Source: Antedon mediterranea
Lineage: Eukaryota > Echinodermata > Crinoidea > Comatulida > Antedonidae
Length of the DNA: 64,000 nucleotides
Assembly: GCF_964355755.1 (NCBI RefSeq)
Contig: NC_092675.1
Location: forward strand, 21,280,912-21,344,911
Reading direction: 5' to 3'
Shown: positions 7,818-64,000 of the stretch, one piece after another
How positions within the stretch are numbered: the first letter of the stretch is position 1
How the letters are laid out: each line of letters opens with the position of its first letter
Notes under the pieces: model-generated
Database searches by the model: none
What the model was told of the DNA's origin: nothing
Seen by the model: the letters and a program-made list of their open reading frames with translations, nothing else
Translations under genes and position numbers: made by a program

Positions 7818-8153
7818 GTAAACCTCTATTCAGGGGACACTTTCTTGTCAAACGAATAAGCAGCAATAGGCCTATATGTTTAACACTATACGAACTCCTA
7901 TTCAGGAGACACTTTCTTGTCAAACGAATAAGCAGCAATATATGTTTAACACTATACGAACTCCTATTCAGGAGACACTTTCTCGTGAAACGAATGAGCA
8001 GCAATATATGTTTAACACTATACGAACTCCTATTCAGGGGACACTTTCTTGTCAAACGAATAAGCAGCAATATATGTTTAACACTATACGAACTCCTATT
8101 CAGGGGACACTTTCTTGTCAAACGAATGAGCAGCAATATATGTTTAACACTAG
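7818..8153. repeat. 66-bp satellite, five copies
   Basis: The unit contains CTATTCAGGAGACACTTTCT, GTCAAACGAATAAGCAGCAA and TATATGTTTAACACTATACG. Five copies are nearly identical; the first also carries AGGCC. Because 66 is divisible by three, frames stay open through the array on both strands (for example MFNTIRTPIQ repeated on plus, SVKHILLLIRLTRKC on minus). These frames are an arithmetic consequence of the unit length, not evidence of protein. Confidence 0.9.
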
Positions 8154-49547: not shown

Positions 49548-52500
49548 CTAAACTATTTCGAACAAACCACAATTGGTTGCATTGTCATCGTACGGTGCAT
49601 TGGATCCATAATCAGTAATCGCAAAACAAAAATGTGTGTCGACTTTTTGTTGTATTTGGAAGGACGTGCAACCGGGTGTTGAAATACAGAATTTAAAACA
49701 ACGTAGGTTGCTTCTGGGGGCACAGCGAACACCGACAGCGAGTGTATTCAAGGCGTGTGACGTCAAACACTTCCTTTTCCCTGTTGGTGCAAACACAATT
49801 CTTGCACTGTACGGTCCTGTAATAAAAATTTTTTAAATTGTGTCATTTTTTAGTTAGAAATAGTAAGATGCTCATATTGGTTTATATTTCAATATATCGA
49901 TACCAATATATTTATTATTTGATTTGGTAAATCGATTATATAGAAATAATATTGATTACTTTAAATGGATTGTGAATTCTGCGTTACCTTCGTTGGTCAT
50001 TTGGGCTACCGTAGTCAAAATAGGTGTGGTCGGGATTACTGTTGTTGATTCTATAAAAATAAACAAATATTAGTAAGTTGTTGCCATTTAAAATGTGCTT
50101 TTTAACGACTAGATTGATCGATTGATTGACTGATACAGGTTATTGTAAGTAAGATCATTGATTGATGGTTATATCTATTGGTTGATGGATTGATTCATTG
50201 ACTGATACAGGTTATTGTAAGTGAGATTATTGATTAATGATTATATCTATTGGTTGATTGATTGATTCATTGATTGATACAGGTTATTGTAAGTAAGATT
50301 ATTGATTGATGATTATATCTATTGGTTGATTGATTGATTCATTGACTGATACAGGTTATTGTAAGTAAGATTATTGATTTATTATTATATCTATTGGTTG
50401 ATTTATTGACTGATTGACTAATACAGGTTATTGTAAGTAAGACTATTGATTGATGATTATATCTATTGGTTGGTTGATTGATTGATACAGGTTATTGTAA
50501 ATAAGATTATTGATTGATGCTTATATCTATTGGTTGGTTGATTCAGGTTATTGTAAGTAAGATTATTGATTGATGATTATATCTATTGGGTGATTGATTG
50601 ATTGACTGATACAGATTATTTTAAGTAAGATTATTGATTGATGATTATATATATTGGTTGGTTGATTGATTGATTGATTAACACAGGTTATTGTAAGTAG
50701 GATTATTGATTGATGATTATATATATTGGTTGGTTGATTGATTGATTGATTGACACAGGTTATTGTAAGTAAGATTATTGATTGATGATTATATATATTG
50801 GTTGGTTGATTGATTGATTGACACAGGTTATTGTAAGTAAGATTATTGATTGATGATTATATCTATTGGTTTGTTGATTGATTGATTGATACAGGTTATT
50901 GTAAGTAAGATTATTGATTGATAATTATATTTATTTGGTGATTGATTGATTGACTAATACAGGTTATTGTAAGTAAGATTATTGATTGATGATTATATCT
51001 ATTGGTTTGTTGATTGATTGATACAGGTTATTGTAAATAAGATTATTTATTGATGATTATATATATTGGTTGATTTATTGATACAGGTTATTGTAAGTAA
51101 GATTATTGATTGATGATTATATATATTGGTTGATTGATTAATTGACTGGTGGTCAATTGGCCTGATATATTTACATTTTGATTGTACATGAATTACCTTC
51201 GGTAGTTTGGTCAACCGTCGTCATCATAGTGGTCGAGATTTGTGTCGTTGATTCTATAAAAGTAAACGCAGTTACTTATTAGATTTAACTAACTCATTGA
51301 TTGATTGATTCATTGATTTACGAATATACATAGGCATACCTTTCGTCGTTTGATCTAACGTTGTCACAAAAGGAGTGGTTAGAGGAGCTGTCGTTGGTTC
51401 TATAGAAGATTCAATTCAAGTCAAAAAAACATTTATTTACGTCTAAAGACAAAAAGTAACAAAAATAATAATGACAAGAGAAAATTTAGAACCCAAAAGA
51501 TGAGAATCTTGTTGTCTTTACAATTAAATATAGATATTATGAAAAAACTAATAAAAATAAATTACATATATTAATTAAAAAGAAACATTAAAGACGAACT
51601 ATAACATAATTTATCTATTATTAACAATGGTTTTGATAAATTCCATTAATGTGATTTATATAGCTTCTTACAGTGTGATGTAAAACAAAATATACACAGC
51701 TTAACATTGAAGTCGGAATAAAGTATTTGGTTAAAAGGACAAAGCCTTCAGTTTTCAAAGAAACACTTCTAACTAACTTTATTAAAAAATCCAGTCCAAA
51801 AAATGGTATGTATACCTTCGGTTGTTTGTATCAACGTGGTTGATTCTTCTGTTGAGAATGTCAGGCCTATAATTAGATTGAAAGCTAACATCAACTAAAA
51901 TATTTATTAACGACAATTTGTATACGTTTCGACAAAAGGGTCATTTAAGAGTGTGTGACTATTTCCAAAACTTGAATGGGAGTACTTCATATCTTCTCCT
52001 ACATCTCATATAAGATGGACAAACACAATTGCTTACCCTATTAAGAAAATATTAAGAGAGACTTGAAGACCAATAATTATTTAAAAACAAGATGAAAATT
52101 TGTCTTCATACGGTGTAATGCGCGGTAGTGATTCTCAGTGCACATTATGATAATTATTTTTCCAGTCATCGACAAATCCGTCTCATTTGTATCAAACGTG
52201 GTGTACCAAAGAAGGTTAGGTTAAGATACCAGGCGTGACATGTGAACACATTAGATTTTGTATCACGATTATCATCATTATCAGTGTTATTATTATCATT
52301 GTTATTATTATTATATAATAGATCGTGCATATCGTGTATTAAAGTCAAACCTTTTTCACAAACATAGGCTCCAGCTGAAGTGGCACAATTTATATTACTC
52401 CAACGTCCATCACTACAGAAAAAGACTACACAGTAGAGTGCACCAGACGGGTCACCTGGTATCCACCCTAAAGGAATAACAATTTATAATAGCAATAATA

Positions 52501-57293: not shown

Positions 57294-60200
57294 TTAAACT
57301 ATTTCAAACAAACTGCAATTGTTTACATTGATTGTATACGGTGCATGTCCATGATCCTCGAGGGCAAAACAAGAGTTCGTACCCAGCTGTCGTTGTATCT
57401 GGAATGACGCACAACCGGGTGTCGAAATACAGAATTTAAAACAACGTAGAACACTTTGAGTGGAATGATGAGCACGTACAGTCAGTGTGCGCAGGGCGCC
57501 TTCCGTCAGACATTTTCTTGCCTTTGTCGTCGATACAAACACCAATCTTGCAGTGTATGGACTAACTAAATCTAAAATACATCAAGATATTAATTATAAC
57601 AATCTTATTCACAATTTCTTGACTACTGACGATCGAAGCATGTTGATCGGAACGTCAAGAAAGCTCACAGTTATTTTCAGAATTACGTAGTGTACCGCAA
57701 ACTTTATCAAAATACCAACAATAGTATTCTGAATGAGATTATTTTGTTTGTATGAATGAAAACAAGAAACAAAAAAAGCCGCTCGACTTTTTGACAGTTT
57801 TAATGATGGTTCTTTCTTCATTAAATGATGCTTTTTTTATAATTTATTTCGACAAAGGTATACTCACTAATCAAACATACACATCATTCGTCAAAAAATA
57901 TACCATAGAGGAAGGATTGTTTTGACCATTATTTAATGATAAATTGATGGTATTATACCCGTCTTATTTTGACAGCCAAAATGAAAACATTTTTTATTGA
58001 ACAGGTCGTAAATATTACTGTTTGCATACTTCTAATATACTCTCTTTTTCAAGATGTACTCTGCGGTTTGCGCATGTCCAGTCCGAGTTTACAAATTCCC
58101 ATTTTTCAAACCATCTTCAAACTATAAGCTTCTGCGAGAAAATATTTTCCTAAAGTTTCCGTCTTCTTGAATATAATTGCCTAAAGGCACATTATTTTCA
58201 ATTATCAACTTTTAACATGTAAAATGTTTTGCTACAAACCTTCTGTTGCTTGAGGTGTGGTCGGGAGTAGTGTTGTTAAATCTATAAATAGATAAGATAA
58301 AAGTATTTAATAAGTTGTCATCGTTTAATTTTCTGACAAAAGAAACAATGTTACCAGTACATACCTTCTGTTGTTTGACATAACGTCGTTACAGCAGGTG
58401 TGGTTGGAGGCAGTGTAGTTGATTCTAAAAATCAAATAAGTAAGTAGGTAAGTAAGTGTTACAATAAGTTGTATGTACAGAAGTAATCTATATATAAATT
58501 TACGTAAGGGCAAAATTCGGTAAATCGCGCCTTACTTCTAGAATTTTTACTCGATGGTATATAAAGTTGGTTCGCACTTTCGGTACTGATTTTAACCACC
58601 TGATGTAACCCTGTTTACTAATTAAATTAAGTTAGATAATTAGTTATTGACGATTAAAACGAATTTAGGTTCAACGATTTGCCCCAAATAGGGGTGTTTT
58701 CCGATCGTGGTATACACTGTCTAATGGATGTCCATCTTGAAAAATACCCGCCACAAAAATGCGAAGAGGCTTCGCATTTTCCTATCTCCTCCTACGATAA
58801 TTGTTTTTAATAGCTGAAAACCGGTTGAACAGTTCGAGTACAGCATCATAATGTTGAAGACAGGCCGATTTTCTTTAAAAAATACTATTTTGATACATTT
58901 AATATACGTTTTTACAAATGCATTGATTTGTGATGAATGGAACATTCCAAATTATTTGGTTTAACCATAGAGGTATAGATTTAGATTTATGGGCCCCCTT
59001 GGAGAATAAACATAAATAGTATTGCAATGCTGTACAATACTGTTAAGGTATTAACAACTTTTGATGGCAATTTGAATCGCAAATTTCTTACTGTGAGTGT
59101 TGGTACTGTTAGATGTATAGTAATATAAAAATATATACAAATAAACTTTATTACTGTGAGTGTGGGTAGGCCCTACTGTTAGATTATAAACATATAATAT
59201 ACAAATAAATAAACGTTATTACTGACAGTTGCTTCTCAACGTTTGTATTAATTAATAATTTAAAAATATATAAACGTCGTAGTGGTGTATCGTTACATGT
59301 ACTTTACTATTTCAATCGACTATGACAGTGAGAGTTTTAACAAAGTACCGTATTAAATCGTAAATGTTTTACTGTATTTAGTGGTATATTATTTATAGGC
59401 CTATAAAACATTAAAAACAATATTTCGTTCCTGAGTGGATAAGAATATATTTTAAAATGTTTCCTCTTTGTACCTATCTTCTTCCCCCATCCCTCAACCC
59501 TTAATGTTACATACAAAACACAAATTGGGTTTGTTTAAATGAGTCCAAATAAAAAAAATTGACTCATTTTGTTTCTCTCTCGGAAGTAATTCCCAGGGTG
59601 CTAATTTTGGTTGACTACATAAATCATTGTGTATATTTATTCGTTTCTGTAAACGACAATATGTATTATAGTCCTGCGGTACGTACATTTGAAATCTCCA
59701 TTTTTTTCTCGCTGGAAATACTGTGTATTCGAGAACCATCTGTGGGCACGACCTAGATGGTACGCGAGCGAAGCGAGCGTGCCATCTAGTACATTTAATT
59801 TTCGGCCTACTTTATCGATAAATTACTTCATTGTATGGTCGATTGTTACAGGTACAGTACATTACATACCTTCTGTTGTTTGACCTAGCGTTGTTACAGC
59901 AGTTGTAGTGTGGGAAAGTGTCGTTGATTCTATAAATCAAATAAGTAAGTAGGTAAGTAAGTGTTACAATAAGTTGTATGTACAGAAGTAATAAATTTAA
60001 TTTTCGGCCTACTTTATCGATAAATTACTTCATTGTATGGTCGATTGTTACAGGTACAGTACATTACATACCTTCTGTTGTTTGACCTAGCGTTGTTACA
60101 GCAGTTGTAGTGGGGGAAAGTGTCGTTGATTCTATAAATCAAATAAGTAAGTAGGTAAGTAAGTGTTACAATAAGTTGTATGTACAGAAGTAATAGGCCT

Positions 60201-61297
60201 ACATTTAATTTTCGGCCTACTTTATCGATAAATTACTTCATTGTATGGTCGATTGTTACAGGTACAGTACATTACATACCTTCTGTTGTTTGACCTAGCG
60301 TTGTTACAGCAGTTGTAGTGGGGGAAAGTGTCGTTGATTCTATAAATCAAATAAGTAAGTAGGTAAGTAAGTGTTACAATAAGTTGTATGTACAGAAGTA
60401 ATACATTTAATTTTCGGCCTACTTTATCGATAAATTACTTCATTGTATGGTCGATTGTTACAGGTACAGTACATTACATACCTTCTGTTGTTTGACCTAG
60501 CGTTGTTACAGCAGTTGTAGTGGGGGAAAGTGTCGTTGATTCTATAAATCAAATAAGTAAGTAGGTAAGTAAAGTGTTACAATAAGTTGTATGTACAGAA
60601 GTAATACATTTAATTTTCGGACTACTTTATCGATAAATTACTTCATTGTATAGTCGATTGTTACAGGTACAGTACATTACATACCTTCTGTTGTTTGACC
60701 TAGCGTCGTTACAGCAGGTGTGGTGGGGAGTAATGTCGTCGATTCAGAATCTATCAAATGAAGGTATGTATTAAATAATTTGTCATGTAATTATAACACA
60801 ATGTGAACTACGTAATTATTTAATACCGTTTAAAAACTTTAGACATTTAACAATAAAATAAGTATACCTTCGGTAGTGTGTCTCAAAGTGGTGGATTCTT
60901 CTTCTGTTGTTAGAGGAGGTCCAACTATTAATTTAGAATAAAGATCATAAATTCCTATTGAAATTTTGAACTGAGGATAACTCATAATTAGCTTAATTTG
61001 TTTTGTACAAATAAAATTAAGCTGCAGATGTTGCAATATAATTTAATTGAAATAGGGCCCTATAAATAATAAACAATATAGTTAATAATATATAGTTTAG
61101 TACATTTTATAGTGACATAATCATTTCCTATTGTTTAGATTAAATAGTTTATGTTTACAACATGGGTCTCTCAGTGTACAAACCTATTTCACAAAGGTAG
61201 TCTAGATTATTGTTACATCCGTAAGTACTCCAAGCTCCATCACTACAGTAAAATGTTACACAATCAGCTGGACCAGACGGCTCTCCTGGTATCCAGT
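57294..61297 (-). CDS. C-type lectin with Thr-rich stalk and PAN/apple-like C-terminus (copy A), 5' part outside window
   Basis: Tandem paralogue of the 55853-49548 gene. Exons in the window, all phase 1: 61297-61184 (C-terminal half of a lectin domain: WIPGEPSGPADCVTFYCSDG, YLCE), 60924-60868, 60750-60685, 60541-60482, 60339-60280, 60131-60072, 59929-59870, 58424-58365, 58281-58240 (stalk mini-exons), 57571-57294 (PAN/apple-like end, CFKFCISTPGCASFQIQ, six Cys, stop TAA). The lectin motif is EPS, not EPN, and WST replaces WND. The stalk has eight mini-exons against four in copy B; four of them (59929-60482) are nearly identical 60-bp exons encoding ESTTLSPTTTAVTTLGQTTE. The signal peptide and first lectin exon must lie above 61300, so the tRNA-like array at 61.8-63.6 kb sits in an intron of this gene unless the gene is truncated. 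Confidence 0.85.
58491..59791. other. 1.3-kb block interrupting the stalk-exon array
   Basis: Intron sequence after exon 58424 (CAAATAAGTAAGTAGGTAAG and on to about 58490) is the same as in the 200-bp units starting at 59792, so this block looks inserted into, or left out of, the repeat series. At 59753-59789 the sequence CTAGATGGTACGC ... GCGTGCCATCTAG forms a strong hairpin next to the array border. No coding domain is seen. Confidence 0.5.
59792..60760. repeat. tandem array of about 200-bp units, each with one lectin stalk exon
   Basis: Five units start near 59792, 59993, 60201, 60403 and 60606 (spacing 201-208 bp). Each has ATTTAATTTTCGGCCTACTT, TCGATAAATTACTTCATTGT, a donor, a 60-bp exon (66 in the fifth), an acceptor and AAATAAGTAAGTAGGTAAGT. 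The first four are nearly identical; the fifth is diverged and may be the founder type. Confidence 0.95.
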
Positions 61298-61658
61298 CTA
61301 AAATTAAATAACAGTGATAGTTAACAATATTACAATGGCATTAATAATACCAATAAGAATAATGATTTAAAATTATAATCATTATTTACCTTGATTTACC
61401 TTGACCTTTAGACTATAAACCTGTTAAGGTTTGTGAGTCCCTCTTTGATCATCTTGGTTATATGGCTCAAACTTTAGGCTGTGGGGTTTTCAGTGTGTTT
61501 CAAGATGGGTTTTAAAATTATTGATAGAGGATGCATTTACTATATTGTTGAATTGTTGATGATGAATCGTCATCACCGGGGAATCAGCATTTTAGTATAG
61601 GCCGACATGTTGAGAATCGTGGGTCTAAACATGATCGCTATTATTATCGATTAATATA

Positions 61659-61720
<62 letters not shown>
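61298..61720. other. intron sequence and (TA)n tract
   Basis: Presumed intron of lectin copy A. 61660-61720 is an almost pure (TA)n tract next to the left arm of the inverted repeat. No exon is seen. Confidence 0.5.
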
Positions 61721-61722
<2 letters not shown>

Positions 61723-61824
61723 CAATGGTGTTGCGTAGCACTGTGTAAATTATATATAAATCATACTGTAAATTATAGAAACAGTGCTCATATTCGGAAC
61801 ATGATCTTATAATCGCGTCGAGCA
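61721..61824 (+). repeat. left arm of 104-bp inverted repeat
   Basis: It runs from ATCAATGGTGTTGCGTAGCA to TAATCGCGTCGAGCA and is matched, reverse-complemented with about two differences, by 63828-63931. Both arms are bordered externally by (TA)n. Confidence 0.92.
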
Positions 61825-62072
61825 TATATATATATATATTTCAGTATATCACCGGGCGGTTTAGAATTAATGTTCTTTGCCTACTGTGTTTATATATATA
61901 AAAGTATCTCTTCGGAGATCCCGCCTCGTGAATATAAATACTGTAAGATGAGGGTGTATCAATTTGATCTCTGTTGCGCATGTGTACAACTGAGGACTAG
62001 TGCTGTTCCGCCGTACCACGCCGAGAATGTTAAAGAGTCGCTATCCAATCGAGTTCGAACAATACCATGAAA

Positions 62073-62144
62073 GCCCCAGTGGTCTAATGGTTAGGACATC
62101 TGCATATCAAGCAGACGGTCCGAGTTCGAGTCTCGGTTGGGGCG
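62073..62144 (+). tRNA. tRNA-like gene, anticodon AUC (would read Asp GAU), array copy 1
   Basis: Cloverleaf by hand: acceptor GCCCCAG pairs with TTGGGGC, discriminator G73; D stem GTCT/GGAC; anticodon stem TCTGC/GCAGA with loop ATATCAA (U33 kept, anticodon AUC); T stem CCGAG/CTCGG with loop TTCGAGT. A box TGGTCTAATGG fits consensus. T5 terminator follows two bases after the gene. The D arm GGTCTAATGGTTAGGA resembles tRNA-Glu more than tRNA-Asp. AUC is not a normal eukaryotic Asp anticodon (GUC is used), so this may be a tRNA-derived repeat, not a decoding tRNA. Confidence 0.8.
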
Positions 62145-62436
62145 ACTTTTTCTCATTCTCACAGATTTCCTCATCTTTATCGTTTCAAATTAATAAATTA
62201 AATTTCAGTATATCACCGGGCGGTTTAGAATTAATGTTCTTTGCCTACTGTGTTTATATATATAAAAGTATCTCTTCGGAGATCCCGCCTCGTGAATAAA
62301 AATACTGTAAGATGAGGGTGTATCAATTTGATCTCTGTTGCGCGTGTGTACAACTGAGGACTAGTGCTGTTCCGCCGTACCACGCCGAGAATGTTAAAGA
62401 GTCGCTATCCAATCGAGTTCGAACAATACCATGAAA

Positions 62437-62508
62437 GCCCCAGTGGTCTAATGGTTAGGACATCTGCATATCAAGCAGACGGTCCGAGTTCGAGTCTCGG
62501 TTGGGGCG
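62437..62508 (+). tRNA. tRNA-like gene, anticodon AUC, array copy 2
   Basis: Identical in the 72-bp gene to copy 1, including G1, the AUC loop and the T5 terminator. Confidence 0.8.
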
Positions 62509-62799
62509 ACTTTTTCTCATTCTCACAGATTTCCTCATCTTTATCGTTTCAAATTAATTAATTAAATTTCAGTATATCACCGGGCGGTTTAGAATTAATG
62601 TTCTTTGCCTACTGTGTTTATATATATAAAAGTATCTCTTCGGAGATCCCGCCTCGTGAATAAAAATACTGTAAGATGAGGGTGTATCAATTTGATCTCT
62701 GTTGCGCGTGTGTACAACTGAGTACTAGTGCTGTTCCGCCGTACCACGCCGAGAATGTTAAAGAGTCGCTAGCCAATCGAGTTCGAACAATACCATGAA

Positions 62800-62871
62800 A
62801 CCCCAGTGGTCTAATGGTTAGGACATCTGCATATCAAGCAGACGGTCCGAGTTCGAGTCTCGGTTGGGGCG
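62800..62871 (+). tRNA. tRNA-like gene, anticodon AUC, array copy 3 (G1 lost)
   Basis: As copy 1, but the leading G is missing, so the first acceptor pair would be A1:C72. The unit is one base shorter. The rest of the cloverleaf and the terminator are intact. Confidence 0.7.
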
Positions 62872-63163
62872 ACTTTTTCTCATTCTCACAGATTTCCTCA
62901 TCTTTATCGTTTCAAATTAATAAATTAAATTTCAGTATATCACCGGGCGGTTTAGAATTAATGTTCTTTGCCTACTGTGTTTATATATATAAAAGTATCT
63001 CTTCGGAGATCCCGCCTCGTGAATAAAAATACTGTAAGATGAGGGTGTATCAATTTGATCTCTGTTGCGCGTGTGTACAACTGAGGACTAGTGCTGTTCC
63101 GCCGTACCACGCCGAGAATGTTAAAGAGTCGCTATCCAATCGAGTTCGAACAATACCATGAAA

Positions 63164-63235
63164 GCCCCAGTGGTCTAATGGTTAGGACATCTGCATATCA
63201 AGCAGACGGTCCGAGTTCGAGTCTCGGTTGGGGCG
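63164..63235 (+). tRNA. tRNA-like gene, anticodon AUC, array copy 4
   Basis: Same 72-bp sequence as copies 1 and 2, with G1:C72 and T5 terminator. Confidence 0.8.
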
Positions 63236-63526
63236 ACTTTTTCTCATTCTCACAGATTTCCTCATCTTTATCGTTTCAAATTAATTAATTAAATTTCAGT
63301 ATATCACCGGGCGGTTTAGAATTAATGTTCTTTGCCTACTGTGTTTATATATATAAAAGTATCTCTTCGGAGATCCCGCCTCGTGAATAAAAATACTGTA
63401 AGATGAGGGTGTATCAATTTGATCTCTGTTGCGCGTGTGTACAACTGAGTACTAGTGCTGTTCCGCCGTACCACGCCGAGAATGTTAAAGAGTCGCTATC
63501 AAATCGAGTTCGAACAATACCATGAA

Positions 63527-63598
63527 ACCCCAGTGGTCTAATGGTTAGGACATCTGCATATCAAGCAGGCGGTCCGAGTTCGAGTCTCGGTTGGGGCG
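63527..63598 (+). tRNA. tRNA-like gene, anticodon AUC, array copy 5 (G1 lost, stem change)
   Basis: G1 is missing as in copy 3, and the anticodon stem 3' strand reads GCAGG, turning the outer pair into T:G. Terminator intact. Confidence 0.65.
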
Positions 63599-63639
63599 AC
63601 TTTTTCTCATTCTCACAGATTTCCTCATGTTTATCGTTT

Positions 63640-63679
<40 letters not shown>

Positions 63680-63736
63680 CATACTGTAAATTATAGAAAC
63701 AGTGCTCATATTCGGAACAGTGCTCATATTCGGAAC

Positions 63737-63784
63737 TCGCCCTGTAAGCGAGAGGTTGCAGGTTCGAATCCAGCCAGAGACATT
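63737..63784 (+). tRNA. tRNA fragment (3' two-thirds, Thr-UGU-like)
   Basis: Anticodon stem CTCGC/GCGAG with loop CCTGTAA (anticodon would be UGU, but U33 is C), then a B box GGTTCGAATCC, an acceptor-like CAGAGAC and a T6 run. There is no D arm upstream on this strand. A D-arm-like TAGCTCATTGGCGAAAG lies on the opposite strand at about 63827-63811. The gene is not complete. Confidence 0.45.
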
Positions 63785-63827
63785 TTTTCATACAACTAAA
63801 AAATACGGAACTTTCGCCAATGAGCTA

Positions 63828-63929
63828 TGCTCGACGCGATTATGAGATCATGTTCCGAATATGAGCACTGTTTCTATAATTTACAGTATGATTTATATAT
63901 AATTTACACAGTGCTACGCAACATCATTG

Positions 63930-63931
<2 letters not shown>
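63828..63931 (-). repeat. right arm of 104-bp inverted repeat
   Basis: Reverse complement of 61721-61824. Part of the same sequence (AAATCATACTGTAAATTATA ... GCTCATATTCGGAAC) also occurs in direct orientation at about 63676-63736. Confidence 0.92.

Positions 63932-64000
<69 letters not shown>
63932..64000. repeat. (TA)n tract to window end
   Basis: Almost pure TA dinucleotide repeat running off the window. Confidence 0.95.

Follow-up and report, generated by a model that had tools for sequence, protein, structure and literature searches.

Metazoan (non-LTR) retrozymes were described by Cervera and de la Pena (2020, PMC7229834) as small, dispersed tandem repeats with units of 150-450 bp. They lack coding capacity, occur as single or few units up to multimers, are found together with Penelope-like elements (PLEs), which that study rates as strong candidates for mobilising them, and are defined by a type I hammerhead; in the consulted passages tRNA figures only as tRNA ligase or tRNA processing. 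Among PLEs themselves, only one system with a purified full-length protein was found in the literature, that of the anole element PAc (PMC11167929). On AT-rich DNA the anole protein cuts both strands and extends each of them, and its reverse transcription starts at two internal RNA sites, the interval between which is the 30-40 bp PLE tail (PMC11167929).

The window, by which the whole 64,000-nucleotide stretch is meant (C6:21280912-21344911 of a 354 Mb genome with 11 large scaffolds), contains an array of 364-bp units, here called family A, adjoined on both sides by a dispersed 367-bp unit, family B, that looks unrelated to family A and also carries a tRNA. With units of 364 and 367 bp both families fall within the size range of the dispersed tandem retrozymes, with which they share small tandem units running from single or few copies to multimers, the absence of coding capacity and the co-occurrence with PLEs. 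Unlike the retrozymes as described in the consulted passages of PMC7229834, they carry a full tRNA gene with a terminator in every unit, and no type I hammerhead was found in them. Helenus elements, which are TRIMs with a tRNA-like sequence in their LTRs, resemble families A and B in placing a tRNA-derived promoter on a non-SINE retroelement, but they use LTR machinery with a primer-binding site, and no LTR architecture was seen in A or B (PMC10886601). The W-elements of Schistosoma are likewise satellite-like and proposed to be mobile; the paper on them discusses hammerheads, and a text search of it found no mention of tRNA (PMC8490949). The array in the window is probably a copy of a non-autonomous tandem retroelement family with one tRNA gene per unit, inserted into (TA)n by PLE-type reverse transcription.

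One array was detected at window positions 61838-63642 (TRF; period 364, 5.0 copies, 98% matches). ARAGORN called five tRNAs in it, all with the anticodon atc, and the Rfam model RF00005 scored the tRNAs of units 1-5 at 60.7, 60.7, 54.5, 60.7 and 51.7 bits. The best host tRNA array scores 67-75 bits, so the family A tRNA is good and not top-scoring. The anticodon loop reads ATATCAA, position 73 is G, and TTTTT begins two bases past the tRNA. The earlier note had listed five units of 364 bp that each contain a well-folded tRNA of 72 nt with the anticodon AUC and G73, followed by a T5 run, and all of these features were confirmed. The array and its surroundings comprise the following features.

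61654..61719, no strand: (TA)n left of the nested insertions (TRF)
61839..62202, plus strand: family A unit 1 (TRF array; 99.2% match to unit 2)
62203..62566, plus strand: family A unit 2, the reference unit (TRF; unit mapping)
62567..62929, plus strand: family A unit 3, 363 bp long, with A at tRNA position 1 (TRF; unit mapping)
62930..63293, plus strand: family A unit 4 (TRF; unit mapping)
63294..63642, plus strand: family A unit 5, which stops at unit position 350 (unit mapping)
61889..61900, plus strand: internal TTTATATATATA of unit 1, unit position ~51-62, where most family A insertions end
62023..62060, minus strand: diverged inverted repeat of 62124-62160, which covers the 3' half of the tRNA with T-run and flank (local alignment)
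62073..62144, plus strand: tRNA module of unit 1, anticodon AUC (ARAGORN; RF00005 60.7 bits)
62147..62151, plus strand: T5 run of unit 1, Pol III terminator-like (consensus scan)
62437..62508, plus strand: tRNA module of unit 2 (ARAGORN; RF00005 60.7 bits)
62800..62871, plus strand: tRNA module of unit 3 (ARAGORN; RF00005 54.5 bits)
63164..63235, plus strand: tRNA module of unit 4 (ARAGORN; RF00005 60.7 bits)
63527..63598, plus strand: tRNA module of unit 5 (ARAGORN; RF00005 51.7 bits)
63642..63676, no strand: (TA)n between the family A array and the right family B insertion (TRF)
63932..64000, no strand: (TA)n right of the insertions, continuing beyond the window end (TRF; unit mapping)

Two unit types alternate along the array with a period of 2. 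In units 3 and 5 tRNA position 1 is A instead of G, and the first acceptor pair is lost. The earlier note had overlooked both details. The array spans unit position 1 to 350 and does not end at the usual family A site; both of its ends lie in (TA)n. Three other tandem arrays were found in the window by TRF, at 50112-51148, 59790-60745 and 7826-8152, with units of ~72/144, 202 and 66 bp. Judged by translation, the insertions appear to lie within an intron of a minus-strand C-type-lectin-like gene. The flanks at window positions 61174-61300 (minus strand) and at L021 ~2000-2500 translate to ...DWIPGEPSGPADCVTFYCSDGAWSTYGCNNNLDYLCEIG and ...CPSTWLAFEGSCYKQFTGSPQTWHNAKYNCGTHGATLVSITSQDENEF.

The distribution of family A was assessed by unit searches, which give lower bounds for copy number. 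Arrays of 1-8 units are present on all 11 large scaffolds, and the best-scoring copies are mostly 95-99% identical. A genome-wide copy count was run with a 24-mer of the family A tail (~unit position 20-44), which had 512 + 490 = 1,002 exact matches, whereas its reversed control had 0. Thus, the earlier expectation of a retroelement was right in direction, but the array is not the single locus of anomalous tRNA genes that had been proposed: it is one insertion of a dispersed family, nested in (TA)n, among at least hundreds.

Units of families A and B were mapped over ~60 loci, a sample consisting mostly of high-scoring copies and of scaffold C1. The 3' ends of family A are strongly concentrated, 51/77 lying in a single 8-nt window at unit position 57-64, where the 99.9% quantile of the null is 10. 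Among arrays chosen only by unit similarity and not by the tail, 21/31 end at 57-65. TTTATATATATA occupies unit position 51-62, and the genome past it is usually (TA)n. The 5' starts are scattered over the unit; their best window holds 11/79, a mild clustering that may come from the choice of tail-bearing loci. The 3' ends usually run into (TA)n, whereas the 5' side is often without TA. Family A has one main 3' end, and many copies have no second end. A fixed 3' end combined with a free 5' end is the pattern of target-primed reverse transcription, and with (TA)n as the target any target-site duplication would be hidden. Remains of the 3' half of an A-like tRNA, together with its T-run and flank, were also observed (L046:1212-1259 and L077-L081:1496-1548). 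They are 81% identical to family A 286-331 and sit in a different, very homogeneous repeat, copies of which often form inverted pairs 6-12 kb apart.

Family B was investigated for the same properties, and its two insertions in the window are the following.

61712..61826, minus strand: family B insertion, B 95-1, then 365-348; 3' end on the left, in (TA)n
63669..63941, plus strand: two-ended family B insertion carrying the 3' part of the B tRNA

The second of these consists of B 56-6 in inverted orientation (63669-63719) and B 257-367 plus 1-95 in forward orientation (63735-63941). Genome-wide, the family B tail yielded 266 matches with at most 1 mismatch. The 3' ends of family B fall at position 56 (8 ends) or position 95 (7 ends), together 15/19 ends, and the two sites are 39 nt apart; both read GATTTA, followed by (TA)n. 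Five of the seven two-ended copies pair one 56 end with one 95 end on opposite strands, and their inner inverted junctions differ from copy to copy. Such variable junctions fit priming from both strands and not a DNA transposon with fixed TIRs. A DNA transposon or MITE, with TIRs flanking internal tandem tRNA repeats, had to be considered on account of a 107-bp inverted repeat (61720-61826 / 63826-63932) whose arms around the array are 98% complementary. The arms, however, are made of two separate family B insertions, inner junctions vary, and many family A copies lack a second end, so that a constant interior between two fixed inverted ends is not observed. Variable junctions and truncations largely refute the TIR transposon, which we regard as extremely improbable.

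A candidate source of the enzyme is resident in the genome. GIY-YIG searches recovered PLE ORFs with RVT_1 and GIY-YIG, and two PLE copies (L046 and L047) share 98.9% identity across 1.6 kb. Another PLE, at L051/L075 (in L075, which is C3:507000-513500, at ~1500-2100 on the minus strand), has a GIY-YIG reading frame and a hammerhead-like core, CTGATGA...GCCCGAAA, repeated at 334 bp, with one of the two copies varying at the core. It ends in GGATTTATATATA before (TA)n; the end TTTGCCTTTGGATTTATATA runs into (TA)n in many copies, and its tail has 892 matches with at most 2 mismatches. The family B 56 end agrees with this PLE end at 16/24 positions, a likeness equalled by 4 of 5,000 shuffles; for the 95 end the same shuffle test was not significant. 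The family A tail showed no likeness to the PLE tail beyond chance (610 and 1,821 of 5,000 shuffles), and the link of family A to a particular PLE is therefore circumstantial. Assignment to a PLE is thus fairly well supported for family B and is made by analogy for family A.

No hammerhead was detected in families A and B by Rfam up to E=10, nor was a CTGANGA...GAAA core found in them by motif search. The motif search is the stronger test, since Rfam misses the minimal hammerhead-like core of the L075 PLE; a genome-wide RF00163 search gave no match and is uninformative. Like anole PAc, families A and B show tandem or partial tandem copies, AT-rich targets and a probable internal start of reverse transcription, and the 39 nt between the family B ends correspond to the 30-40 bp tail that arises from the two PAc start sites, with extension from both strands (PMC11167929). 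Two 3' ends 30-40 nt apart are thus present in family B, and (TA)n flanks and inverted two-ended copies are present in the genome, a geometry from which two-strand extension may be deduced. In contrast to PAc, a unit of only 0.36 kb contains no RT or endonuclease ORF, and the start site resembles the (TA)n target, whereas the PAc start site is not homologous to its target (PMC11167929). With 364 and 367 bp the units are too short for an ORF with RT and GIY-YIG, and neither family would be an autonomous PLE.

These findings suggest a route in which a Penelope-like enzyme, with GIY-YIG endonuclease and RT, would cut (TA)n DNA and reverse transcribe a multi-unit RNA. Copying would begin at the internal TTTATATATA of the RNA, giving the fixed 3' end, and would halt anywhere, giving scattered 5' ends. 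The inverted copies with two ends, which are common, would arise when both strands of the target act as primers. A different tRNA would take the same route in family B.

A route with no RNA step was also weighed, in which extrachromosomal DNA circles arise from tandem tRNA arrays and are reinserted at (TA)n by microhomology. The host keeps its real tRNA genes in tandem arrays, which makes units of a tRNA plus spacer normal in this genome, and the window array has (TA)n at both ends. Host Lys, Asp, Glu and Cys tRNA genes form large arrays with units of ~140-430 bp (C8:23582228-23673161, C11:19514213-19524113, C6:19428918-19439196, C10:14319536-14350480, L073 and L074); the units measure ~175 bp for Lys, ~165 bp for Asp and ~180 and 425 bp for Glu, and in the C10 array Glu alternates with an 88-nt tRNA on the opposite strand. 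Yet TTTATATATA was not found in the sampled host tRNA arrays, the two ends of the insertions are unequal, with a fixed 3' end and scattered 5' ends that are often without TA, and the 39-nt two-site pattern of family B would need a separate explanation. Reinsertion of DNA circles is accordingly considered quite unlikely.

Identity is higher among units of the same array than between arrays (98.2% vs 96.5% in family A, 99.7% vs 98.9% in family B). A single template for each array, which may be a circle like those of retrozymes (PMC7229834), would account for this, as would later homogenisation. A higher-order pattern of period 3 was seen from unit lengths in L025, and together with the period 2 of the window array it would favour multi-unit templates in some cases. 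A viroid-like rod was rejected: the whole unit folds well (z -6.5, -5.2) and the spacer alone is unremarkable (z -1.7, -1.8).

The position of the terminator bears on the role of the tRNA. In the family A consensus the only run of four or more T is the T5 run after the tRNA (consensus scan), which is kept in an identical 14-nt context in 65/82 units. Family B has a T6 run after the tRNA in 15/20 units, and it is absent from the L039 B array. With a T5 run directly after the tRNA, its promoter is not expected to yield a full-unit RNA, unlike the head of a SINE, and the template for reverse transcription must be supplied by a different promoter or by read-through. The families could nevertheless be ordinary tRNA-SINEs, with the tRNA as Pol III head and the arrays produced by repeated insertions or local duplications. 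Like tRNA-derived SINEs, they are non-autonomous repeats with a Pol III module that resembles a tRNA and includes A- and B-box-like sequence, and the copies are dispersed and truncated at one end. On the other hand, the terminators would stop Pol III short of the element body, so that, judged from the sequence, a transcript running from head through body is not predicted. Furthermore, the tRNA lies mid-unit when the unit is delimited by its fixed end, the units are in tandem, an internal (TA)n junction replaces the LINE-type tail at the 3' end, and inverted two-ended copies are common. An ordinary tRNA-SINE is thus unlikely, and the idea of a SINE founder locus in the earlier note did not survive, given the T5 run and the existence of many other insertions.

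The unusual anticodon leads to the question whether the tRNA works in the cell. Misreading of GAA by a tRNA whose A34 acts as inosine is conceivable in principle. A working repurposed tRNA family, used for unusual decoding or as a source of fragments, retrotransposed and kept by selection, would agree with the presence of U33 and G73, with the 76/82 full family A units in which ARAGORN finds a tRNA with ATC, and with loop positions 33-36, which show no changes in 75 units. At such low divergence, though, zero changes at four sites are expected. The mean minor-allele frequency is 0.033 in the tRNA vs 0.032 in the upstream spacer of family A, and 0.005 vs 0.004 in family B; no extra conservation of individual tRNAs over the spacer was seen in units of either family. 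Broken pairs number 0.43 per family A unit vs 0.58 under random placement, and subfamily changes at tRNA positions 24, 27 and 43 weaken pairs. The family B tRNA, whose body presumably resembles tRNA-Pro, has the loop CCTGTAA with an unrelated anticodon, UGU, and with C33 could hardly enter translation. In the host genome a GUC pattern matches ~75 tRNA-Asp-like sequences, most of them in the C11 tandem array of 165-bp units; because this ordinary set exists, AUC is not the cell's solution for Asp. Neither a GUC anticodon nor selection on the tRNA, as expected of a functional tRNA-Asp, was found in family A. The earlier note had called the body Glu-like in the D arm; compared along its full length with host Glu genes, the tRNA reaches no more than about 69-73%. 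Derivation of family A from a host Asp or Glu tRNA was considered and rejected, the best identity to sampled host genes being 73%. A working tRNA family is therefore held to be very unlikely. In a dispersed mobile family the odd anticodon is most likely cargo of the element and not a new decoding tRNA; relaxed constraint on it is the simplest reading, and it would be tolerated if the tRNA works for the element rather than in protein synthesis.

Upstream of the tRNA, the 3' half of the tRNA with T-run and flank recurs in both families as a diverged copy in inverted orientation. In family A its local alignment score is 39, with a maximum of 30 in 500 shuffles; in family B the score of 36 is just above the shuffle maximum of 34, and the same alignment in host tRNA arrays scores 22-26. 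This design, shared by two families, is their most unusual feature. From its sequence the inverted copy can pair into a long stem that encloses the tRNA, and we would guess that this RNA stem may compete with the cloverleaf. A tentative and rather improbable extension is a retrozyme-like class in which the tRNA, and not a hammerhead, processes the multimer. By cleaving at every tRNA, host RNase P and RNase Z would then supply the PLE enzyme with spacer RNA of unit length or with circles, and the inverted copy would act as a switch from a cloverleaf open to cleavage to a long hairpin protected from it, and back.

Taken together, the best reading of families A and B is that they are like metazoan retrozymes and probably PLE-driven, differing in that they carry a complete tRNA gene with its terminator and that no hammerhead was recognised in them. 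If so, PLE machinery would mobilise more than hammerhead retrozymes, and complete terminated tRNA genes would travel as tandem arrays, reaching at least hundreds of copies. In animal genomes such elements would also inflate tRNA gene counts and lead to predicted tRNAs with improbable anticodons. With its two-site ends and two-ended inserts, family B would provide a natural record bearing on PLE insertion.
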